Source: Roseimaritima multifibrata (lineage in GTDB: Bacteria; Planctomycetota; Planctomycetia; Pirellulales; Pirellulaceae). Taken from it: a stretch of DNA of 64,000 nt. The stretch is taken from contig NZ_CP036262.1 of NCBI RefSeq assembly GCF_007741495.1, positions 6,200,001 through 6,264,000 on the forward strand, written 5' to 3'. The notes below the pieces were generated by a model that saw nothing but the letters and a program-made list of their open reading frames with translations, did not search any database and was not told the origin of the DNA. This document shows, piece after piece, positions 13,098-57,911 of the stretch. The translations under genes were made by a program, and so were the position numbers. Position 1 is the stretch's first letter. Each line of letters starts with the position of its first letter.

Positions 13098-15650
13098 TTA
13101 GATATCGGGAAGTACCAATTCTTCGATCCGCTGACGCGTTTGCAGCACAAATGGCTGATCTTGGTCAGACGGAGCGATTGCATCGAGGTCGGCAGAGGCG
13201 TTTTCGATAGCCGCAAGCTTCCCTTCTGTATCCCCTTGAAGATCACCGATTTCGGCAACCGATCGGTACAATAAGGCTCGCCAACATCGGTGAGTCATAT
13301 TTTCAGGCGACTCCTCCACCAACTGCGTTTGAATGCGCATCGCATTGTCTAGGTGCTCGGAGGCAAGCGATAGGTCTCCAGCGGAGCGAGCGATATTGGA
13401 CAACTTGTGCCACACATGTACTTCGGCAACGGCGAAGAGCGTCGTGTCCGGGAATTGACGACGCAAAGGGGCAAGTTCGTCCAGCGATTCTCGCAGTCGC
13501 ATCCGGGCTTCGTTCCGTTGACGAGGCGTCCGCACTTCACGCCGCAAATTCACCCCTGCCAAGGCTTCCACCAAACGAAAGCGGACGGCGGTATCGTCGG
13601 GCGTCGCATCTAGCTGGCGGCGAAAAATTTTGATCGCTTCCGCAAAATGATCTTGTTTGAGGCCCGGACGTTTGGCAAGCCGCGATTCTGCCAGGCGAAC
13701 CTGAGCTCGCAGAACTTCAAGCAGACTACCCTGCCCCCTCGATTCCTGCACCGTTCCACCCTCTTCAGGCGTTTGGTGCAGTTGTTCCAATATTTCATGG
13801 GCAGCATTTAGATGTTCTCTCTGCTGTTGATGAGCCAATTGAACCGACGACGAATCAACACGGCGGCGCTGCGAAGCTGGAGCCCCCAGGGCCACATGAG
13901 CACGGGCTAGTTGCAACTGTGCTTCGCGGTCCGATGCGGGAACCTTCATCGCGGCGGTGATCGCTTCGAGGGAAGCGGCTTCGGATTCATCGAATCGCAT
14001 CGCACTCGCGTTCGCTGCAGCCAATTCGTTGTACAAACTTGCCAACAGCCGTTGCTTTTCATTTTCAGGCAGTGCGGTCATCTCACTTCGCGTCAACAGA
14101 ACCTGCAGACCGCGATCTAGCGAATCGATCGCAGCGGACGTCTGCCCCAATTGTTGCTGGATCAACGCCAACCGAATACTCGCCCGAATCATCTGCACGA
14201 TCACATCGGGCCGGCTAGGCGATTGCTGCGAAAGCCGTTCATAAAGCGGCTGAATACTCTCAAGTACCTTCGCCGTATGCGGGGATGGATTCAAGCGGAG
14301 AATGGGCGAGCCCGAATTATCAAAGCCCGAATCGTCAAACCCCGTATCGCGGATTCCCGCCGAAGGGGCTGCCACAATATCGACGACGCCATCCAGCGAC
14401 AGTAAAGCAACGTCTACCGTCTGCTCCGACTGGCGCAGCGCCTCGGCCGTCCGTTGATTCGCTTGCGAAACAATCACCCACCCCGCGGTCGACGCCAACG
14501 TTGCCAGGCTTAGCGATGCCAAAGCAATCCCCGCGGACGCTGCAATCCGCGGATTTCGACGGCACCACCGCAGACAACGCGACAGCGGCGAAATACGTCG
14601 AGCCTGAATCGGCTGATCCAGCAAGAAACGATTCAGATCGTCCCGCAGACTTGCAGCCGTTTGATATCGGAGCGAAGCCTCCGGATTCATCGCTTTGGAA
14701 ACAATCGTTTCCAAATCTAACGGAACATCGGGGCGTAAAAGACGAACCGATTTAACACGGTGCTGGCGGACCGATTCCATTAACTGATGAGGATCCGAAT
14801 CCACAAAGGCAGGCTCACCAGTCAACATCTCATAAAGCGTCAAACCCAGACTATAGATGTCGCTCCGCTCGTCGGACAAACCTTGAAAGCGTTCCGGAGC
14901 CATGTAGCGTGGACTGCCACTGAGCGCCTGCGTCATCGTCAGATCATCCTGCCGATTTCGGGCAAGACCAAAATCGGTGATTTGAGCCGTATCGTTTTCA
15001 TCCAGCAGAATATTGGCCGGTTTTACGTCTCGATGTAACACGCCGCTATGGTGCGCATAATCAAGAGCATCGGCGATCTGCTTGGCAATCAGCGAAGCCC
15101 TCCGAAAATCAAACGAGGCACCCGCCTCCGTAATTTTCTTATCCAGCGTCTCTCCCTGGACCAGTTGCATGACAAGGTACGAGGTGCCGTCGGCTTCACC
15201 TGTCCCGAAAACGGGAACAATATTCGTATGGTGCATGGCAGCGGCCGTCTTCGCTTCGCGTTGAAAGCGCCGGAGGGCTGCATCATCCAACAAGCTTTGC
15301 TTGGGAAGCAATTTAACGGCCACCATCCGTCCAAGCGATTCTTGCATCGCTTCAAAGACGACCCCCATTCCCCCCCGTCCGATTTCTCGAATCAGGCGAA
15401 AATCACCCAACTGTTTGGGGGACCGCCCTGCGAGCGTCGCAGTACCATCGCCAGAAACCTGCTGGTCAATTTTGACTTTTTCAACCGACAACACCAGCGG
15501 AAACATTTTTTGAATCGCTGCGGCCAATTCGGGATGCCGGCGTACGTATTCGTCGATCGTAGGCCGGTCGCCATCGCGATACCTTGCCAAGAAATCACTA
15601 GCAAGGACATCCACGCTGGCGAAAGTATCATCGGGATCCGCATCAAGCAT
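13098..15650 (-). CDS. Transmembrane Ser/Thr protein kinase with C-terminal TPR-like region
   Basis: About 850 residues from the ATG at 15648-15650; an upstream frame to 15821 looks non-coding. A ~80-residue N-terminal segment (LARYRDGDRPTIDEYVRRHPEL) is typical of planctomycete kinases. The kinase domain is at ~83-350, with GRGGMGVV (91-98), catalytic HRDVKPAN (~207-214) and DFGL (~227-230). One membrane helix follows at ~370-395. The remaining ~450 residues are helical and repetitive, like TPRs, facing outward or into the periplasm. Other genes nearby (EF-hand protein, sigma factor) are on the same strand upstream; a sigma/kinase pair suggests shared signalling. Confidence 0.93.
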   Translation of the reverse strand: MLDADPDDTFASVDVLASDFLARYRDGDRPTIDEYVRRHPELAAAIQKMFPLVLSVEKVKIDQQVSGDGTATLAGRSPKQLGDFRLIREIGRGGMGVVFEAMQESLGRMVAVKLLPKQSLLDDAALRRFQREAKTAAAMHHTNIVPVFGTGEADGTSYLVMQLVQGETLDKKITEAGASFDFRRASLIAKQIADALDYAHHSGVLHRDVKPANILLDENDTAQITDFGLARNRQDDLTMTQALSGSPRYMAPERFQGLSDERSDIYSLGLTLYEMLTGEPAFVDSDPHQLMESVRQHRVKSVRLLRPDVPLDLETIVSKAMNPEASLRYQTAASLRDDLNRFLLDQPIQARRISPLSRCLRWCRRNPRIAASAGIALASLSLATLASTAGWVIVSQANQRTAEALRQSEQTVDVALLSLDGVVDIVAAPSAGIRDTGFDDSGFDNSGSPILRLNPSPHTAKVLESIQPLYERLSQQSPSRPDVIVQMIRASIRLALIQQQLGQTSAAIDSLDRGLQVLLTRSEMTALPENEKQRLLASLYNELAAANASAMRFDESEAASLEAITAAMKVPASDREAQLQLARAHVALGAPASQRRRVDSSSVQLAHQQQREHLNAAHEILEQLHQTPEEGGTVQESRGQGSLLEVLRAQVRLAESRLAKRPGLKQDHFAEAIKIFRRQLDATPDDTAVRFRLVEALAGVNLRREVRTPRQRNEARMRLRESLDELAPLRRQFPDTTLFAVAEVHVWHKLSNIARSAGDLSLASEHLDNAMRIQTQLVEESPENMTHRCWRALLYRSVAEIGDLQGDTEGKLAAIENASADLDAIAPSDQDQPFVLQTRQRIEELVLPDI

Positions 15651-15847
15651 AAATAAAAACCGCCATACGATTTGCCCCATGAAAGTGGCATGGGTTTTCC
15701 AGCCCGCCAAAACCATCCGAAATCGGGCCACACTTCCCGTGGAAATCCTTACGCATGATTGTACTCCAACATGCCCCCACCGCCTGTAGGCCAATCGCCC
15801 AGTGGTCCGGTCCCGAAGCACTACCTGACGTTTCGCCGAGCAACGCT

Positions 15848-16561
15848 TTAGTTTCTCCCGGCGGGTCGCCGTCCCTGCGTTGGCGCATTTTTTCTTTCCA
15901 CGGCTTCACCCTCTGGATTTAAACGGTTGCGACGAAACTGAGCTGCCAAGACCAGTCGTTCCGCTTGGTCTAGTGACCGATCCTTGTTGGCGTCCGCGAT
16001 TTCAAAGGCCTCGTGCATATGAATGGGCAATTCATCCAGTCCAATCAGGTTGTCTTTGTTCTCGTCAAACTCAAGAAGGTCTTTGGCAAACGCCGCATCG
16101 GTTTGTGCCGAATCACCACGCCCTGGCCGTTGCCCTTGTCCTGGCCCCGAATCTTGCCCCGGCCGTTGCCCTGGACCTGGACGTTGTGCTTGACCTTGTC
16201 CCGGCCCTCGACTGCGACCATTCTGCATACCAGGACCGCCTCCGGGGTGAAGTTCCTCCGCCGTCAATTGACCATCTTGATTGCGATCCAGTTTGAGCAA
16301 TGAACTGGATGCCTGGGCGATTTCGGACGCCGACAATTCGCCGTCGCCGTTGGTATCAAAGATTCGCAGCCAAGGAGGCGATTGCTGACTGCCAGCTTGG
16401 CCACCACGCGGCCCCCCCATTCCCGGCCGCTCGCCTCCCGGCCGTCCGAAACCCTGCCCCTGCCCCTGACCGGCTCGTCCTGGCGGCTGGGCATTGGCGG
16501 AAGGAGACAAAAAGCCAGCAGCAAATGCGAACAGAGCAATCGAAGCGAATACGATTTTCAT
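15848..16561 (-). CDS. Secreted EF-hand protein with Gly/Pro/Gln-rich linkers
   Basis: 237 residues. A signal peptide ends at SANAQ (about residue 25). Four EF-hand calcium loops can be read: DTNGDGELSASE, DRNQDGQLTAEE, DENKDNLIGLDE and DANKDRSLDQAE. The linkers are rich in repeated GQGQ/RPGQ. It probably binds calcium outside the cytoplasm; partner unknown. It lies between the kinase and an ECF-like sigma factor on the same strand, and resembles the EF-hand protein at 48798. Confidence 0.88.
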   Translation of the reverse strand: MKIVFASIALFAFAAGFLSPSANAQPPGRAGQGQGQGFGRPGGERPGMGGPRGGQAGSQQSPPWLRIFDTNGDGELSASEIAQASSSLLKLDRNQDGQLTAEELHPGGGPGMQNGRSRGPGQGQAQRPGPGQRPGQDSGPGQGQRPGRGDSAQTDAAFAKDLLEFDENKDNLIGLDELPIHMHEAFEIADANKDRSLDQAERLVLAAQFRRNRLNPEGEAVERKNAPTQGRRPAGRN

Positions 16562-16680
16562 GATGGGGGCTCGATGGTTTTAAGTAGGGGATGAGGCATC
16601 ATTAGAAACCCCGATCCAACCGAACATCTACCGAAAAAATAAAAAAGGTTTTGCGATCGACCGGATTCTTTCCGGCAAGG

Positions 16681-17373
16681 CTATGAAATCTGCGACAGGA
16701 CCCCACGTAACCGCTCCAGCGCCCGCATGTACCGAATGCTTGCCGCTTTCGGCTGGATGCCAAGTTCGACGGCAACCTCCTGATTCGTCAGCTCTTCGAA
16801 GTGCCGCAGCGCCAACACCTCTCGATCGATCTCATTCATCCCTTGCAGCGCTTCGTGGACCTGCCCAATCAGCTCTTGCTTCACCGCCGCTTGGCTGGGT
16901 GAAGTCAGGTGTGCGATAAAACGCTGCGAAAGACACATGGAAGTATTCTCCCATGATTTGGCGGCCGACGGATTCGATTCACGAAGCGTCGATCGTGATT
17001 GAGTCCCTAGATGCCTGCGATGAACGTCGCTAAGCGTTTGCCCGGCGACCAAACGTAGCCAAAGAAAAAACGAGGGAAAATCACCATCGATGAAATGTTG
17101 AAGCCGCTTTTCAGCGTCGATGTATACCTCTTGCAGCACATCATCCGCGTCGACACGGCCGCGAACCTGATCGCTTAAACGAAAGTGAATGATCTGCCAA
17201 AGCCGTGGGCGATGATGTACAAAAACTTCAGCGAATCGCGATGCATCGCCCGCTTTCAGTTGCTGCTGGAGGTCTTCGATCAAAGAATTCACAAAACGTT
17301 CTAGAAATTCGGTAGATGTTAGAGCTGCGCCGGGTTTACTTACATACACCCCCAACAACTCTTCGACCCCCAT
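16681..17373 (-). CDS. ECF-like RNA polymerase sigma-70 factor
   Basis: 230 residues. Region 2 is visible as VFVHHRPRLWQIIHFRLSDQVRGRVDADDVLQEVY...FFLWLRLVAGQTLSDVHRRHL, and region 4 as MNEIDREVLALRHFEELTNQEVAVELGIQPKAASIRYMRALERL. The long spacer and the DADDVLQEVY motif fit the planctomycete ECF sigma group found with kinases. Its start overlaps the leader of the divergent sulfatase gene. A later start near residue 19 is possible. It may act with the kinase encoded downstream on the same strand. Confidence 0.9.
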   Translation of the reverse strand: MGVEELLGVYVSKPGAALTSTEFLERFVNSLIEDLQQQLKAGDASRFAEVFVHHRPRLWQIIHFRLSDQVRGRVDADDVLQEVYIDAEKRLQHFIDGDFPSFFLWLRLVAGQTLSDVHRRHLGTQSRSTLRESNPSAAKSWENTSMCLSQRFIAHLTSPSQAAVKQELIGQVHEALQGMNEIDREVLALRHFEELTNQEVAVELGIQPKAASIRYMRALERLRGVLSQIS

Positions 17374-27317: not shown

Positions 27318-27362
27318 CATCCGGTTCGGATTGCCGCTTTCAGCGGCAATCCGAACCGGATG
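27318..27362. terminator. Perfect 21-bp-stem hairpin between convergent genes
   Basis: Two perfectly complementary 21-bp arms flank a 3-base TTC loop. Outer AAATTTCAAA-like arms extend the symmetry beyond 27284 and 27396. A smaller hairpin (CATGCCA / TGGCATG) is at 27255-27275. There is no U-run, so it may be a bidirectional terminator or part of a palindromic element. It sits between the sulfatase stop (27192) and the kinase stop (27669). Confidence 0.5.
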
Positions 27363-27668: not shown

Positions 27669-30600
27669 CTAATTGCCAATCACTTCGCCGCCGTCCCGCG
27701 TGATCAACTTTTGCAATTTGTCGTTATCGATCGGCTGCATGTCGTGCACGCTGCCGTCGGCCATCAGATAACGCAGGATGTCTCCCTCTAGCGATTCAAC
27801 ATTGGTTTCGGTCAGATCTTCAGGCTTGGTCCAAGGAACACCTTTTTTTGATTCGACCAGAAGGATCGTGCTTGCGAGACCATCGGTGAAATTTCTAAAC
27901 GACTCGCCATGGGCGTTGCCGAGCGCTCCATGCTCCGTGGCGAATCCCAAAAAATGAGTCTGCCCGACCGGATCATCGTCTGGTGCAAAGGGGCTCTGAT
28001 ACACTTCCGGCATTTTTTCTACAAGCTTAATGTTATTCTCGCTGTCCCATGGTTCATTGAACCGATACTGCTCAAACAAATCTTGCTGCTCGACAAAAGG
28101 CAGAATGGCCACCCGCCAACTATACGGGAAAGTTGTATCTCCACTGATTGCTCTCGCTCCTTCACGCACGTTGGCACTACCGGGAAACTTCTGGTACACG
28201 TCATGGAAATTGTGAAAACCGATACCAATTTGCTTTAGTGAATACTGGCTAACCAATCGTCGATTGGCAAGCTCCTGATTCTCCAGTGCTTTGATCGCGT
28301 TGTCTTCCTCCATTTCGTCTAGTTTTTGACAAAAGTCCAGGCCAACAGAATGCGCGACCGAAAACACTCCAGACCGTACCAGTTCAAGCCTTTCATTATC
28401 TCCGGCAGGAAAATCCGACTGCCGGGTTAAGGTGACATGCGACGTACTACCCGGCTTGTGCAAGAGAAATGCGGGGCGAACTTTCAAAGGGAGTAACGAC
28501 GGTTCAAAATAAAGTATCGCTTGGCCATCCTTGCTTTCCAAAAAACCAGCATGAGGCGCACTAAAAGAAAATTCAGATAGTGCAAACACTTCATTGACCT
28601 TGACCACTTGGCCATTAACCACTCCTTCCGTTGAGTTGAACGCATAGCCCCCCATCTGAATCACAGCAGAATTTTCCAAAACGTAATAGCGTCGATTACT
28701 AAAAACGATTAAGACGTCCTGCACTTCCTTACCGTTACTTAACAGCACATTCCAGGTTCCTCGAACAGAATACTGTGGCTTGGACGCTGCGTTGGTTCGA
28801 TCTTCTGCAGTGATGCTGCGGTAAAACTTCAGAATTTCTACCGGCGTGAAGTCTCCAGATATTACACATGCACTGGTTATCGGGGAATTGATCACTGGAG
28901 CCATAACCACTGATCCATCGACAACCACAGCAAGTGACTTCCCAAGGTTATCACTGGTGAAGCGACGCATTCGAGGCGTCAAAGCGTCATCAAACGCCAG
29001 TTTGATTTCGGGCCTTGTCGCCACGGCGTCAGACTTCTGGTTTCCCAGACCCTGAGATGAAACCGAAGCCTTGACATGCCCACCGGTGCGTTCAAGACGT
29101 TGGTCCGCTTTAGGCGATGCCAAAGCGTATCGAATACCATTATGTTCACGAACAATCGGAGCTGTCGCTTGATCGGCAATCGGGATCCAATCACCGTGGT
29201 TAACCGAAACAATCATATGGATTGCTGACGGTGGCAGCCCCAACTGCGAGGTGGCAATCTCAAGTTCCTCTTCGGTCAAATCGTCCTTACGAAGCAAGAT
29301 TCTGAATGCTAATCCAGCCGTGACTGGAGCGGAATCGCTGTTCAGCAATTGCGGGACGGCGTTTCTTTGACCGGCTTTTCCGATAGCCTCTACCACCGAA
29401 CTGGTAGCGTCCGCCGACTTGGGATTCGTTTCAGCACCGGCCAACTCATCGGATTCCACGGCAATTTCGCTTCCCGGCGGAACGTCTATTTTGGCTTGAG
29501 TTCCATCTGGGTATTTGATCGTGATGATGACGCCAAACGCGATCCCGATTAGAAAGCCTAGAAAACCGGTGGCGACCGCGAAGGCAATCGGCACTCTGCG
29601 TCGTGTCGATTCCAACGCGGCATTTGCGATTGGGTATGAATCAATCAACGGCTCGCTCGCCGCTGAAAAACCGCTAGCGTGGGCACCGGCAATTAATTTC
29701 TGCAGATCACTTCCCTCCGTAAACTTCTCCAATTCCTCGGCGACCTGAACCGCCGATTGCGGACGTTTGGCTAAATCTTTCTGCAACATCGAATCGACCA
29801 GGGACACCAAGCCCTTGGGAACGTTTCCGGCTTGATCACTCAACCGCGGCGGCGGAGCGGAAACGTGGGCCGTCATTTTTGCGAATGGCGTTTGGTATTG
29901 GTCATCTGCAAACGGAGCTTGTCCGGTCAATAATTTCATCAACGTGCAGCCAAGCGAATAGATGTCGGCACGAACATCGACGCTACGACTGTCAGTCACC
30001 TGCTCGGGAGCCATGTAATCGGCCGTTCCCATCGCCTGCCCCGTGCCGGTGATTTCGACTCGATCAGGATCGCCATACTGAAAGCGTGCCAACCCCAAAT
30101 CCAACAGTTTCACTTCACCGCTGCGGCTGAGCATCACATTGGAGGGCTTGATATCGCGGTGCACAAACCCTTGGTCATGCGTGTAGGCAAGCGCAACACA
30201 AACGACTCGCACGATTTCGCACGCGTCGGCTGTCGAGAGCGGACCGACAGCCTGAACCAGTCGGCCAAGATCCAGCCCGTCGATATATTCGGTCACCAGG
30301 ACCGCCGTTCCCTCAATCTCGCGAGCATCATGTGCAGTAACAATGTTAGGGTGACTCAAACGGCCGATCGCGCGCATCTCCGCTTCAAAACGCTGGTGTA
30401 CGCGTGCATCGCCCAGTCGATGCGTCGCCAACACTTTGAGGGCAACTTCGCGTCCCAGCTTTCGATGCCGCGCAAGGTAAACGCTTCCCATCCCTCCCGA
30501 TCCGAGTGGCCGCACGATTTCGTACTCGCCAATTTCTTGCGGCAAGTTGGCGGCGATACCTGAACTGTCGCTAGACAAAGCGAGCGATCCGAGGGCCTTC

Positions 30601-30836
30601 ACAACGGCGACCTGGCAATCAGGCTCTTCACCAAACGATGCTAACGGATCCGGTTTTCGCAAATCCACGATCAACGAATCCTCACCATCGTCGATCGTTT
30701 CCAGCTCAGACGTGCACGATTCGCACTGCGAAAGATGTTGATAAACCGCTTCGCTCGCCTCATCGGACAAACGTCCCAGCACAAACGCGTTAAGCTGGTC
30801 GGGAGGCGGACATTTCGTGGGGGCGGCGGTCATCAT
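27669..30836 (-). CDS. Chimeric receptor Ser/Thr kinase: zinc finger, kinase, TM, SecD-like, DUF1559
   Basis: About 1055 residues from the ATG at 30834-30836; an upstream frame to 30983 overlaps the sigma promoter. Layout: anti-sigma-type zinc-binding helix (H34-x3-C38-x2-C41); kinase domain ~104-370 with GSGGMGSV (112-119), HRDIKPSN (227-234) and LDLGLA in place of DFG (~245-250); membrane helix ~415-440; a SecD P1-like region (~505-675: GLAFRILLRKDD and LAVVVDGSVVMAPVI, ISGDFT); a beta-rich TIGR03067-like segment (~690-810); a DUF1559 domain (~865-1035). It is divergent from an ECF sigma gene 145 bp away, so the zinc finger may hold that sigma factor. Confidence 0.9.
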   Translation of the reverse strand: MMTAAPTKCPPPDQLNAFVLGRLSDEASEAVYQHLSQCESCTSELETIDDGEDSLIVDLRKPDPLASFGEEPDCQVAVVKALGSLALSSDSSGIAANLPQEIGEYEIVRPLGSGGMGSVYLARHRKLGREVALKVLATHRLGDARVHQRFEAEMRAIGRLSHPNIVTAHDAREIEGTAVLVTEYIDGLDLGRLVQAVGPLSTADACEIVRVVCVALAYTHDQGFVHRDIKPSNVMLSRSGEVKLLDLGLARFQYGDPDRVEITGTGQAMGTADYMAPEQVTDSRSVDVRADIYSLGCTLMKLLTGQAPFADDQYQTPFAKMTAHVSAPPPRLSDQAGNVPKGLVSLVDSMLQKDLAKRPQSAVQVAEELEKFTEGSDLQKLIAGAHASGFSAASEPLIDSYPIANAALESTRRRVPIAFAVATGFLGFLIGIAFGVIITIKYPDGTQAKIDVPPGSEIAVESDELAGAETNPKSADATSSVVEAIGKAGQRNAVPQLLNSDSAPVTAGLAFRILLRKDDLTEEELEIATSQLGLPPSAIHMIVSVNHGDWIPIADQATAPIVREHNGIRYALASPKADQRLERTGGHVKASVSSQGLGNQKSDAVATRPEIKLAFDDALTPRMRRFTSDNLGKSLAVVVDGSVVMAPVINSPITSACVISGDFTPVEILKFYRSITAEDRTNAASKPQYSVRGTWNVLLSNGKEVQDVLIVFSNRRYYVLENSAVIQMGGYAFNSTEGVVNGQVVKVNEVFALSEFSFSAPHAGFLESKDGQAILYFEPSLLPLKVRPAFLLHKPGSTSHVTLTRQSDFPAGDNERLELVRSGVFSVAHSVGLDFCQKLDEMEEDNAIKALENQELANRRLVSQYSLKQIGIGFHNFHDVYQKFPGSANVREGARAISGDTTFPYSWRVAILPFVEQQDLFEQYRFNEPWDSENNIKLVEKMPEVYQSPFAPDDDPVGQTHFLGFATEHGALGNAHGESFRNFTDGLASTILLVESKKGVPWTKPEDLTETNVESLEGDILRYLMADGSVHDMQPIDNDKLQKLITRDGGEVIGN

Positions 30837-30981
30837 TGCATTTTCCCTTGGTGTAGGCGAAAGTGAAAGCACCCTCAACGAGAATGGATCCACCTGACAA
30901 TAAGATGAACGCAAACGTCTGACACGAATTGCAAAATTTTCGAAAATGGAGCCCCGGCGGCTCGGGCGATCATTAAAAAAC

Positions 30982-31584
30982 ATGTCAAATCCCTCCGCGA
31001 ATCGCCCCGATCATCCAACGCTATCCACGATGTGGATCGCGGATGCCAAACAGATGGAACCGCAAGCGTGGAGCCGATTAGTGACGGTCTTCGGACCGAT
31101 CGTCTATCGATGGTGCCGAGTGGCCGGAGTCCCGGCGGGGGACGCACCAGACGTCGTACAAGAAGTGTTTACGTCGGTTGCTAGGGGCATCCAGAATTTT
31201 GAAAGGCAAAAATCTTCGGGCAGTTTCCGAAGTTGGCTGGCGACGATCACCCGCAGCCGGGCGACCGACTATTTTCGCCGAGCCGCAAAACAACAGCAGG
31301 CCGCTGGCGGAACCGAAGCGATGTATGCGTTGCAACAGCTTGCGGAGAACGTTGAATCGACGATCACGCCAACCAACGTCCAAAGCGATATCTCCAAGCA
31401 GTTGCTGCTACAGGTTCAAGCCGAGTTTGAATCGACCACCTGGGACGCCTTTTGGCAAACAACTATCGAAGGCAAATCGGCTTCAGAAGTCGCCGAAGCA
31501 ACCGGCCTGTCACGAGCAAGCGTCTACCAAGCGAAATCGCGGATTCTTAAATCGCTGCGGAAGCGATTGGCGGAATCGTCTTAG
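30982..31584 (+). CDS. ECF RNA polymerase sigma factor
   Basis: 200 residues from the ATG at 30982; the frame is open from 30946, but the shorter start removes 12 atypical residues. Region 2 is visible in GPIVYRWCRVAGVPAGDAPDVVQEVFTSVARGIQNF...SFRSWLATITRSRATDYFRR. The C-terminal region-4 helix-turn-helix reads GKSASEVAEATGLSRASVYQAKSRILKSL. It is divergent from the zinc-finger kinase, the usual arrangement for a sigma factor and its membrane regulator. It is followed by a 1.4-kb repeat-rich gap. Confidence 0.93.
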   Translation: MSNPSANRPDHPTLSTMWIADAKQMEPQAWSRLVTVFGPIVYRWCRVAGVPAGDAPDVVQEVFTSVARGIQNFERQKSSGSFRSWLATITRSRATDYFRRAAKQQQAAGGTEAMYALQQLAENVESTITPTNVQSDISKQLLLQVQAEFESTTWDAFWQTTIEGKSASEVAEATGLSRASVYQAKSRILKSLRKRLAESS

Positions 31585-54651: not shown

Positions 54652-55305
54652 ATGATCGCGACCGACTCATCTCATTCCAGCAATACCAACGATGCCGACG
54701 CCGATTTCCCGGCGCTTCTCGCCAGCGCCCGCTCGGGCAATCGTGAATCGCTTGGTCAATTACTGCAGTGGTACGCGAATTACCTAACGATCCTAGCCAC
54801 CACCCAGTTGGATAGGCGTTTGCGTCGTCGCCTGAACCCTTCGGATATTGTCCAAGAAGCGATGCTGGCGGCTCATCAAGACTTCGCTGATTTTCGAGGC
54901 GAAAGCCAGGGCGAACTATTGTGCTGGCTGCGGACCATTTTGATTCACACGCTCCATCGCAGTTTCAAAAAACATGTAAAAGTCCAAAAGCGTGATATTC
55001 GCCGCGAAGTCTCCTTGGAAGCCGTAAGCAACCGACTGGAAGAATCGGCTGTGAACCTTGCCGCGATCCTGCCTGCACATGGACCGTCGCCAAGCACCCC
55101 GATGCGAACACGTGAACGCGGCGTGGAACTTGCCAACGCACTCAGCAAACTGAAACCCGCCTACCGTGAAGTCATCACGCTACGGGTTTTGCAAGGGCTG
55201 CCGTTCGAAGAGATCGCCCAGCGGATGGACCGAGGAAGCGGTGCGGTCCGAATGCTGTGGTTACGTGCGTTGGAATCATTCAAGACGACCGGAGACATTC
55301 ACTAA
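54652..55305 (+). CDS. ECF-like RNA polymerase sigma factor
   Basis: 217 residues from the ATG at 54652, which has AGGAAA at spacing 6; a GTG at 54628 would add eight residues. Region 2: LDRRLRRRLNPSDIVQEAMLAAHQDFADFRGESQGELLCWLRTILIHTLHRSFKKH. Region 4: LKPAYREVITLRVLQGLPFEEIAQRMDRGSGAVRMLWLRALESF. It belongs to the kinase-linked planctomycete ECF group. Its stop overlaps the kinase start by one base (TAATG), so both are made together. Confidence 0.93.
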   Translation: MIATDSSHSSNTNDADADFPALLASARSGNRESLGQLLQWYANYLTILATTQLDRRLRRRLNPSDIVQEAMLAAHQDFADFRGESQGELLCWLRTILIHTLHRSFKKHVKVQKRDIRREVSLEAVSNRLEESAVNLAAILPAHGPSPSTPMRTRERGVELANALSKLKPAYREVITLRVLQGLPFEEIAQRMDRGSGAVRMLWLRALESFKTTGDIH

Positions 55306-57911
55306 TGGTCGTAACGAATCCCTCGATCGTAGATGCCAGTATCGATGCCGAGCCCTCGTTGATTGCCGGATTGAGCCAAGATCAACAGGCCAGGCTGACG
55401 CAACAATTGGACGATTATCTGGTCAGCCTGGAAAGCGGACAACCGCTTGATCCGAAAGAACTAGCTCGCAAAAATCCAGATATCGCCAGCGTCTTTGAAT
55501 CGTACTTGGAGAAACTGGATGCGTTGTACGGGGTCGCCGTTGGCTTCAATGATCCCAGCGCCCACGAAACACTAGACAAGATCACCTCCGGAAAAATGAA
55601 GCTGGGTGATTTCACCCTTTTAAGTGAAATTGGTCGTGGCGGGATGGGCGTGGTCTATGAAGCCACCCAAGAATCGCTGTCACGCCGGGTCGCGATCAAA
55701 CTGCTACCGATCGCATCGCTGCTTGATTCCCAACAGATCGCACGTTTCAAGAACGAAGCACATGCAGCCGGATTGCTAAATCACCCGAACATTGTGCCGG
55801 TTCACAGTGTCGGCACCGAACGGGGATTGCATTTTTATGCGATGCAGCTGATCGATGGAACATCGATGGACGAGTGGGTCCAACGACATGCAGCAACCGT
55901 TCAATACCCTCGGGATTCGGGATCGTCAGCAGACCGTGCGCCACACGATGATTGGCGCACCACACTCGGCTGGATCATCGACGTCGCGCGCGCGTTGCAT
56001 GCGGCCCATGAAACCGGCGTTATTCATCGGGACGTCAAACCGTCCAACCTGATGCTGGACAATCAAGGCAAAATTTGGATCACCGATTTTGGGTTGGCCC
56101 GATGCCAAACCGATTTAGCACTAACAAAGTCGGGCGACCTTGTCGGAACCATGCGTTACATGAGCCCCGAGCAAGCGAGGGGACAGCATGCAATGGTCGA
56201 CGGACGCGCCGATGTCTATTCGCTTGCCGCCACTGCTTACGAATTGTTAACCCTGCGCACCGCTCACGACGGTGAAGACGCGCCTGCGATCATGAAAATG
56301 ATCGCTGAACAGGAAGTGACTCCAGTGCGTCAACTGCGCAGCGATCTACCGCGAGACCTAGAAACGGTGATTACCAAAGCACTTGCGAAAAGCCGCGATG
56401 AACGTTACGAAACGGCAGACGCGTTTGCGGACGATCTTTCCCGCGTGCTCGCAGGCGAACCGACGATCGCTCGTCCGGCCACGCTGGTCGATCGTGCAAG
56501 CCGCTTCTCCGCAAAACATCGCTTAAGCGTTTTGTCCGCGATCTTGGTGGGGCTGCTTAGCCTAGTGGGTTTTGCGGCAAGTACCGCAATGATCGCTGCG
56601 GAAAAACAAGTTTCCGATGACAACGCCGCCCGTGCAACTCGCAATGAACAACTGGCTCGCGGCGCCGTCGATCGACTGGGGTCGCAGATGGCCGAACTGC
56701 TGGCCGACATTCCCTCCGCCGATCCTGTTCGGCGAACGCTTCTTAAAGAAACACTAAATTACTACAAAACCTTTGCAGCGGGTGCTGACAACGACCCTGC
56801 ATTAAAAGAAGACCTTGCGATCACGTATGGGAAGATCGGTGCGTTGCAAAGCGAACTAGATGCAACCGATCAATCCCTTGACGCACTGCGCCGCAGCGAG
56901 TCCTTGTATGCTGAACTGGGCATAGAATCTGGCAGCACAGCGATCGCTTCTACGGGAAATGCCAATTCATTCGGCAGCAACAATAAACGGCGACTCGCTT
57001 GGTCAACCAGTCAAAACAACCTTGCCCAGGCCCTCAACGATACAGGGAACCTTGAGGAAGCTGCCAAGTACTTCGCGCGAGCCATCAAAACACAGCGAGT
57101 ATTATTGGAATCCGACTCCACTGGGCAGGTGCGTCTAGCACTTGCTACCACATTGAATAATCTGGGGCTGTTACTTGCCGATTCGTTAGCGAACGACGAA
57201 GCGGAAAAACGTTATCTGGAAGCGATCTCTCTGCTGCAACCGACCGGCGAATCGCCTACAGACCTCGCGGCCAAACAACAACTTGCTGCAGTCTACGCGA
57301 ACCTGAGCGGCCTACTGGCAAATATTTCGCCGGGGCGTGCAACGGAATACGCGCGTCAAGCACTGGCAGAACAAACGGGCGTTCTAAAAACGGATCCAAG
57401 CAATGCCAAACTTGCGACGCAAGTCATCGTGACCCTTAACACGCTTGGGGCTTCGCAGTCGTCCGCCGGTCATCCTACCGAAGCGATCGAAACGCTTTCC
57501 CGAGCGGTCGAAATCGGCAATCAATTAATGACACGCTGGCCCGACCAACCGACCTATCGGCGCGACCTGGTCATCAGCCTAAACCACCTTGGCTTGGCCC
57601 AATCCAAAACCGGGAACTTGCGGCAAGCAAGTACAACCTTTCACGCGGCACTAGTTCACGGCCGTCCGCTTGCTAAATCCTTCGCAACCGATGCCGAAAC
57701 GCAGTCGATGTTAGGCGGCGTCCTAAACAACCTGGGCTTCATGCAACAACAACTTGGGGAACATGACGCCGCCGCAGCAACCTACGATGAAGCGATCGCC
57801 GCCCAAACGCTCGCCGTCCAGTTGGCACCTCAGGTCAAACGCTATCGCCAGTACCTCCGCAAACACAAAGAGAATCACCAAATGGTCTCCCATTCAGGAG
57901 CGGCATCATGA
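55305..57911 (+). CDS. Transmembrane Ser/Thr protein kinase with TPR-type sensor region
   Basis: 868 residues from the ATG at 55305. A ~95-residue N-terminal helical part precedes the kinase domain (~100-385: GRGGMGVV at 110-117, HRDVKPSN, ITDFGLAR, TMRYMSPEQARG). One membrane helix (LSVLSAILVGLLSLVGFAAS, ~400-425) follows. The outer ~430 residues have TPR-like helices with SQNNLAQALNDTGNLEEAAKY-type repeats. Middle gene of a sigma/kinase/surface-protein operon; its stop overlaps the next start by four bases (ATGA). It probably couples a surface signal to the sigma factor by phosphorylation, which is inferred. Confidence 0.94.
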   Translation: MVVTNPSIVDASIDAEPSLIAGLSQDQQARLTQQLDDYLVSLESGQPLDPKELARKNPDIASVFESYLEKLDALYGVAVGFNDPSAHETLDKITSGKMKLGDFTLLSEIGRGGMGVVYEATQESLSRRVAIKLLPIASLLDSQQIARFKNEAHAAGLLNHPNIVPVHSVGTERGLHFYAMQLIDGTSMDEWVQRHAATVQYPRDSGSSADRAPHDDWRTTLGWIIDVARALHAAHETGVIHRDVKPSNLMLDNQGKIWITDFGLARCQTDLALTKSGDLVGTMRYMSPEQARGQHAMVDGRADVYSLAATAYELLTLRTAHDGEDAPAIMKMIAEQEVTPVRQLRSDLPRDLETVITKALAKSRDERYETADAFADDLSRVLAGEPTIARPATLVDRASRFSAKHRLSVLSAILVGLLSLVGFAASTAMIAAEKQVSDDNAARATRNEQLARGAVDRLGSQMAELLADIPSADPVRRTLLKETLNYYKTFAAGADNDPALKEDLAITYGKIGALQSELDATDQSLDALRRSESLYAELGIESGSTAIASTGNANSFGSNNKRRLAWSTSQNNLAQALNDTGNLEEAAKYFARAIKTQRVLLESDSTGQVRLALATTLNNLGLLLADSLANDEAEKRYLEAISLLQPTGESPTDLAAKQQLAAVYANLSGLLANISPGRATEYARQALAEQTGVLKTDPSNAKLATQVIVTLNTLGASQSSAGHPTEAIETLSRAVEIGNQLMTRWPDQPTYRRDLVISLNHLGLAQSKTGNLRQASTTFHAALVHGRPLAKSFATDAETQSMLGGVLNNLGFMQQQLGEHDAAAATYDEAIAAQTLAVQLAPQVKRYRQYLRKHKENHQMVSHSGAAS

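Follow-up and report, generated by a model that had tools for sequence, protein, structure and literature searches.

How might a membrane kinase that carries an anti-sigma-like zinc motif at its N-terminus act on the sigma factor encoded beside it? The question is raised by a locus of Roseimaritima multifibrata (Pirellulaceae) in contig NZ_CP036262.1, where a stretch of 64,000 nucleotides (positions 6,200,001 to 6,264,000; hereafter the window, from whose first letter coordinates are counted) was analyzed. An earlier note on this DNA had described the protein as a chimeric kinase that may both hold and phosphorylate the product of a neighboring extracytoplasmic function (ECF) sigma gene. Here the protein is found to combine a predicted ZAS (anti-sigma) domain with a complete kinase, and the sigma factor to keep the residues expected of a competent one. 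The features on which this rests are as follows (loci are numbered L and genomes G throughout).

27669-30836, minus strand: protein of 1055 aa with ZAS, Hanks-type kinase, transmembrane (TM) helix and ectodomain; open reading frame (ORF) from the ATG at 30836.
30642-30836, minus strand: ZAS domain, residues 1-65; likely ligands C9, H34, C38 and C41; S54 kept as S/T.
29727-30539, minus strand: Hanks-type Ser/Thr kinase domain, residues 100-370, from Pfam and motifs.
29511-29588, minus strand: single TM helix at about residues 417-442, following RRR, from hydropathy.
30982-31584, plus strand: ECF sigma factor gene, with the sigma ATG at 30982.
31141-31152, plus strand: DAPD in sigma region 2.2, at the position of the DxxD/DAED contact with core RNA polymerase.

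The kinase and sigma genes are divergent, with ATGs at 30836 and 30982 separated by 145 bp, exactly as the earlier note had given it; an alternative upstream kinase ATG at 30983 (1104 aa) would overlap the sigma gene. Four Pfam families scored above their cut-offs in the 1055-aa protein (zf-HC2, Pkinase, SecDF_P1_head and DUF1559), and NCBIfam concurred in finding kinase and SecD similarity, with scores below the full-length cut-offs.

The zinc pattern H34-x3-C38-x2-C41, previously read as anti-sigma-like, was upheld. Pfam zf-HC2 matched residues 13-41 with 22.6 bits (cut-off 22.2), rising to 27.4 bits when the N-terminus was scanned alone, and 19 of 21 family members gave a zf-HC2 match at E up to 1. 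Among 36 aligned family members (39 rows less L039-L041, in which the region is absent), H34 and C38 were each kept in 35 and C41 in all 36. A fourth conserved Cys/His position, absent from the earlier note, is C9 (C in 32, H in 3 and R in 1), and these rows thus display the HxxxCxxC with upstream Cys/His ligand of ZAS domains; C9 occupies what we take to be the place of the fourth ligand, as in ZAS proteins such as RsrA. A 21-row profile of the N-terminus found the solved structures of DdvA (5.5e-7), ChrR (3.1e-6), RslA (0.011) and RsiW (0.027), together with a CHAT-domain protein at 4.7e-6, the remainder being at 0.37 or above. Modeled with AlphaFold2 from 8 rows, residues 1-104 (mean pLDDT 62.9) contained helices at 12-19, 25-37, 39-48 and 55-60. 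Nine of the ten Foldseek matches of this model in the PDB were ZAS anti-sigmas complexed with a sigma or sigma domain, each at a weak E of 1.2 to 5.3, the tenth being a spliceosome chain. As to a ZAS fold, the expected helices and the nine matches are present, but the model is only moderately confident and every E-value lies above 1. Judged by its ligands and profile matches, the zinc motif is part of a ZAS anti-sigma domain, sigma binding itself being predicted.

The conserved ligand positions would also suit a zinc site that acts as a redox switch and frees the sigma factor alone, as for RshA, the kinase then serving other substrates or fine-tuning the response; zinc-containing anti-sigmas can indeed sense oxidants (PMC8999054, PMC7406223). 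However, about 48% of the class I anti-sigmas that are bound to the membrane carry the zinc motif, and a structural role was suggested for it (PMC7406223); a redox switch would also leave the large ectodomain unexplained, so that we regard this explanation as improbable.

The product of the divergent gene passed the cut-offs of Sigma70_r2 (44.5 bits) and TIGR02937 (70.3 bits), with Sigma70_r4_2 at 21.7 bits (below the cut-off of 25.7), and is by these profiles an ECF sigma factor. Its association with the kinase was surveyed in 41 loci, including that of the window, picked by kinase similarity alone (the 30 best-scoring from 149 genomes of the family, of which 109 matched, and 11 from named genomes). 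A sigma homologue adjoined the kinase in 34 of the 41 (one cut by a contig end), in line with the co-occurrence expected from the earlier note. As for the seven sigma-less loci, the upstream sequence is shorter than 600 nt in L025, L036, L041 and L043; in L038 some 700 nt of it gave no match; and L039 and L040, with more than 5 kb upstream, gave no sigma match and no ZAS. Gene order was divergent in close relatives, with sigma placed before kinase in most of the distant ones. The divergent ECF sigma factor is thus probably the partner of the ZAS kinase. The same data bear on the view that the N-terminal domain is a relic in a general receptor kinase to which the sigma gene is linked only historically: a degenerate ZAS in some homologues (L036, L047) would agree with it, whereas nearly invariant ligands and the adjoining sigma gene in these 34 loci, in both gene orders, make it very improbable.

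EcfP, of the ECF43 group, has STTA in place of DAED and regains the charge on phosphorylation (PMC8999054). This hallmark, an exchange of DxxD for uncharged residues that include a phosphorylatable Thr, was not found in the window sigma, which has DAPD; among 33 family sigmas, D was present at both ends in 31 (the exceptions being QAAD and DAEN), and S/T occupied the third position in only one. By this motif the window sigma falls outside the phospho-activated ECF43 type, and activation of that type through phosphorylation within DxxD is disfavored by the 31 sigmas with D at both ends. With DxxD kept, the window sigma lacks the feature that, as published, makes phosphorylation necessary for EcfP, the partner of PknT in ECF43. 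These counts also stand against a kinase that directly phosphorylates and activates the sigma factor, as PknT does EcfP, with the ZAS merely docking the substrate. Direct phosphorylation is nevertheless known for adjoining kinase-sigma pairs of ECF43 (PMC8999054, PMC13147305), and the sigma2-sigma4 linker of EcfK is a target of PknS as well, which makes direct phosphorylation compatible with an intact DxxD. We consider this explanation unlikely, if far from negligible, and phosphorylation of the sigma itself by the kinase is hypothetical.

The motif was further compared between ECF-kinase pairs with and without a ZAS, using region-2 (PF04542) matches in four genomes, namely that of the window, G011, G105 and, from another family, G217, for which the prediction had been written down beforehand. 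The 178 sites (40, 46, 38 and 54, respectively) were reduced to 151 (34, 38, 32 and 47) by leaving out 27 with frames longer than about 400 aa. A pair was defined as a kinase no more than 600 bp from a sigma ORF (26 pairs in the first three genomes and 7 in G217), and a ZAS was called from H- or D-xxx-C-xx-C ahead of the kinase. ZAS-kinase fusions proved common (16/33 pairs). S/T at the third position was seen in 1 of 16 sigmas beside ZAS kinases as compared with 9 of 17 beside ZAS-less kinases (Fisher p 0.0066), or 1 of 16 against 9 of 15 (p 0.0021) once L044, which is convergent, and L119, which is distant, are set aside. ZAS-less kinases stand beside ECFs with xxSD in region 2.2 at L048-L051, L053, L146, L155, L178 and L294, which are candidate phospho-activated pairs. 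The xxSD class is not new in itself, phosphorylation of a region-2.2 Ser having been proposed for ECF59 as well as for the former ECF60 (PMC8103513); its link with the ZAS is the new part. On this basis we suggest, tentatively and with somewhat more doubt than confidence, that planctomycete ECF-kinase pairs fall into two classes, one of phospho-activated xxSD sigmas with ZAS-less kinases and the other of competent DxxD sigmas held by a kinase-fused ZAS and released by its autophosphorylation in cis. The contrast between pairs with and without a ZAS has its weak points: the surveyed pairs are phylogenetically non-independent, G217 alone gave 0/4 against 1/3 (p 0.43), and L162 is an exception in which a DSSD sigma accompanies a ZAS kinase.

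The kinase domain matched Pfam Pkinase at residues 105-360 (183 bits), and its motifs are complete (GSGGMGSV at 112, VALK at 131, HRDIKPSN at 226, DLGLA at 246 and APE at 276); with the G-loop, VALK, HRD, DLG and APE all present, the kinase looks active. DLG in place of DFG, which had been singled out as an oddity, turned out to be the family rule (38 of 39 members, with DMG in the other), and as a mark of an inactive kinase it was rejected on the same count. Among 30 kinase ORFs from the first three genomes of the survey above, 19 had DFG, 2 DLG, 2 DYG, 1 DVG and 1 DWG, with 5 giving no match to the pattern. The membrane helix claimed earlier was recovered by hydropathy as one TM segment at about residues 417-442. 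Since RRR precedes it, the kinase side would be cytoplasmic, and the P1-head and DUF1559 modules that follow would be extracytoplasmic.

The modules assigned to the predicted ectodomain, one of them by orthology only, are as follows.

28812-29165, minus strand: extracytoplasmic module resembling the SecD P1 head, residues 558-675, from Pfam and profile search.
28437-28787, minus strand: module resembling TIGR03067, assigned by orthology to about residues 684-800, from below-cut-off matches in orthologues.
27672-28268, minus strand: DUF1559 (SBP_bac_10) module, residues 857-1055, from Pfam.

Both of the ectodomain families recognized in the earlier note were recovered, DUF1559 at residues 857-1004 (87.1 bits; cut-off 23.3) and SecDF_P1_head (PF22599) at residues 602-666 (44.7 bits; cut-off 27). 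A profile of the P1 head found five solved SecD/SecDF sequences at 1.6e-14 to 2e-5, the best being 3aqo (SecDF), and on these values the similarity is genuine homology. The protein is not a full-length SecD: of the 397 positions in TIGR01129 the alignment covers just 140-211 (33.3 bits; cut-off 244.4), and there is a single TM helix. The third module, TIGR03067-like and absent from the earlier note, was found between the P1 head and DUF1559 in five of nine scanned relatives (L004, L005, L007, L008 and, weakly, L012), in each case below the cut-off, with no match in the window protein itself.

The periplasmic export-related signal that had been read into the P1 head was not supported. P1-head matches occurred in 232 of 294 genomes across the phylum, mostly in long ORFs taken as SecD, and the genome of the window has PF22599 twice, in one long SecD-like ORF and in the window kinase. 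Within such kinases the P1 head was found in at least 14 of the 149 genomes of the family (the link in G099 resting on equal ORF length), and in G045 it belongs to an orthologue spread over three ORFs. Twelve further matches, picked as ORFs unlike SecD, all fell in ORFs without a kinase; ten of these ORFs are short (165-346 aa), with N-termini that by eye are mostly leader-like. An export signal is not implied, because P1 heads occur in other, non-Sec proteins which appear to be exported and lack the translocase part, and the P1 head was accordingly rejected as evidence of Sec sensing. Such short, apparently exported ORFs with a SecD P1-head-like domain (L085-L090, L093-L096) come from several planctomycete families, and L236 (G041) combines a P1 head and DUF1559 in a single ORF without a kinase domain. 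Frameshifting, decay or an assembly error may explain why the orthologue in G045 (L011) is broken into a ZAS-kinase, a P1-head and a DUF1559 ORF. No P1-head match was obtained in several relatives (L013, L015, L017 and L020 among them), and distant relatives carry other regions, namely HlyD (L034), LRR (L035) or DUF11 with a P1 head (L036); by its domain content the ectodomain is modular. A structure model of the ectodomain reached a mean pLDDT of 39.5 and was set aside.

The ZAS, the complete kinase, the one TM helix, the modular ectodomain, the adjoining sigma gene and the kept DxxD are thus read from the sequence; sigma binding, its release, the phosphosite and the signal we infer. Of the three outcomes by which the earlier note would have been refuted (residues 1-60 unlike a ZAS domain, no SecD similarity by profile, no co-occurrence with the sigma gene), none was observed, with moderate confidence as regards the ZAS fold. 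In our judgment the chances are about even that the ZAS tethers an otherwise competent sigma factor, that the ectodomain signals to the kinase and that autophosphorylation of the ZAS or linker sets the sigma free. The ZAS domain would keep the sigma factor at the membrane, away from core RNA polymerase, until the ectodomain (P1 head, TIGR03067-like module and DUF1559) detected an envelope or solute cue. The activated kinase would then phosphorylate its own ZAS or linker, and the released sigma factor would bind core RNA polymerase without being phosphorylated. There is precedent in PknB, which phosphorylates anti-sigmas so that their sigmas are released (PMC8999054). Within the ZAS, D53 (34/36 rows) and S/T54 (32/36 rows) lie just ahead of the modeled fourth helix, and helix 4 of class I anti-sigma domains contacts sigma2 (PMC7406223); because of this position, S54 is a candidate autophosphorylation site. 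Several points count against this mechanism. S54 may be only a helix cap, and the EDS/TL motif is missing from other ZAS-kinase subfamilies. The model of the ZAS is moderate, with pLDDT of about 80 at residues 11-40 and about 51 at 51-60, so that helix 4 is poorly modeled, and all of its Foldseek E-values exceed 1. A Ser occurs somewhere between the two D positions in 3 of the 33 family sigmas, and in Mycobacterium tuberculosis SigH itself is phosphorylated by PknB (PMC13147305), which leaves room for sigma phosphorylation here.

Under this tethering mechanism, the freed sigma factor may also act back on its own locus through a conserved sequence between the two genes, absent from the earlier note.

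30904-30925: conserved 22-bp intergenic element, GATGAACGCAAACGTCTGACAC as printed on the plus strand, noted at loci L003-L022.

When scored against RATRAACGCNNNCGTCTGACAC, a pattern derived from the same loci, 18 of 20 divergent loci showed 0-4 mismatches and 15 of 20 showed 0-2; L008 had 5 and L023 none better than 7. None of 364 control windows from other loci did better than 5 mismatches, and since eight of them reached 5, the L008 match is near chance. An independent result was given by the exact core TRAACGCNNNCGTCTGACA, with 11 matches in the 149 genomes of the family, all at this locus. Allowing up to one mismatch, there were 52 sites in these genomes, of which this locus accounts for at least 14, with 38 others as compared with 38 for a control pattern; allowing up to two in the genome of the window, there were 3 sites as compared with 9. 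With sites elsewhere no commoner than those of the control pattern, a regulon-wide promoter was rejected. A small ORF within the element (ATG AAC ... TGA) was also dismissed, the ATG being ATA in some orthologues, and the spacing within the element appears too short for an ECF promoter of the canonical AAC/CGT type. In L022 the sigma gene precedes the kinase gene in the same direction, with the element between the two, and from this placement the element may belong to the kinase gene. Measured to the kinase ATG, its distance is 35-268 (median 67, 17 loci), and measured to the approximate sigma ATG it is 4-369 (median 68, 19 loci); these figures favor neither gene. Autoregulation through the element is a guess.

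The sigma-kinase pair is flanked by genes for a sulfatase and a phosphoglucomutase/phosphomannomutase, and no anti-sigma gene was found in a scan of these two flanking genes, small ORFs between being left out. A perfect 21-bp inverted repeat with a 3-nt loop (27318-27362), between the convergent sulfatase and kinase genes, is possibly a bidirectional terminator. Two more sigma70 region 2 matches with a same-strand kinase occur in the window (about 14718-17223 and 54814-56426); their kinases are without a ZAS and share, by eye, a mutually similar N-terminal segment of another kind.

ZAS domains, STPK-linked ECFs (STPK, Ser/Thr protein kinase), SecD P1 heads and DUF1559 are each already known. 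The window domain resembles ZAS/class I anti-sigmas (ChrR, RslA, RsiW and DdvA) in its HxxxCxxC with upstream Cys/His, modeled helical layout, profile similarity and pairing with an ECF sigma factor, and differs in forming one polypeptide with a Hanks kinase that has an ectodomain of its own. The ECF gene adjoins a transmembrane Hanks kinase as in the STPK-linked groups, that is ECF43 (EcfP/PknT, EcfK/PknS) and the planctomycete ECF59, ECF61, ECF62 and ECF217 named in PMC8999054, from which the window pair differs in a kinase that contains an anti-sigma domain and a sigma factor that keeps DxxD. In Rhodopirellula baltica, the ECF sigma RB138 and the Ser/Thr kinase RB140 are jointly up-regulated under stress (PMC2754498). 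With SecD/SecDF the protein shares a homologous P1-head module (E 1.6e-14 to 3aqo), the only part to align, which here serves as one ectodomain module. The DUF1559 (SBP_bac_10) proteins, described as specific to the Planctomycetes-Verrucomicrobia-Chlamydiae (PVC) group (PMC4807772), have the same domain, placed here at the C-terminus of a kinase ectodomain. In the titles and abstract openings searched, no account of a kinase fused to a ZAS, or of how such a fusion relates to the region-2.2 motif, was found, Casas-Pastor 2021, Jogler 2012 and Wiegand 2020 lying outside the comparison.

A ZAS borne on the kinase would provide the missing inhibitor, and it leads to a concrete two-class hypothesis that is testable on pairs within one genome. 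If true, the two-class reading would unite anti-sigma factor and receptor kinase in a single-protein switch, and one planctomycete protein may sense the envelope, hold a sigma factor and decide its release.

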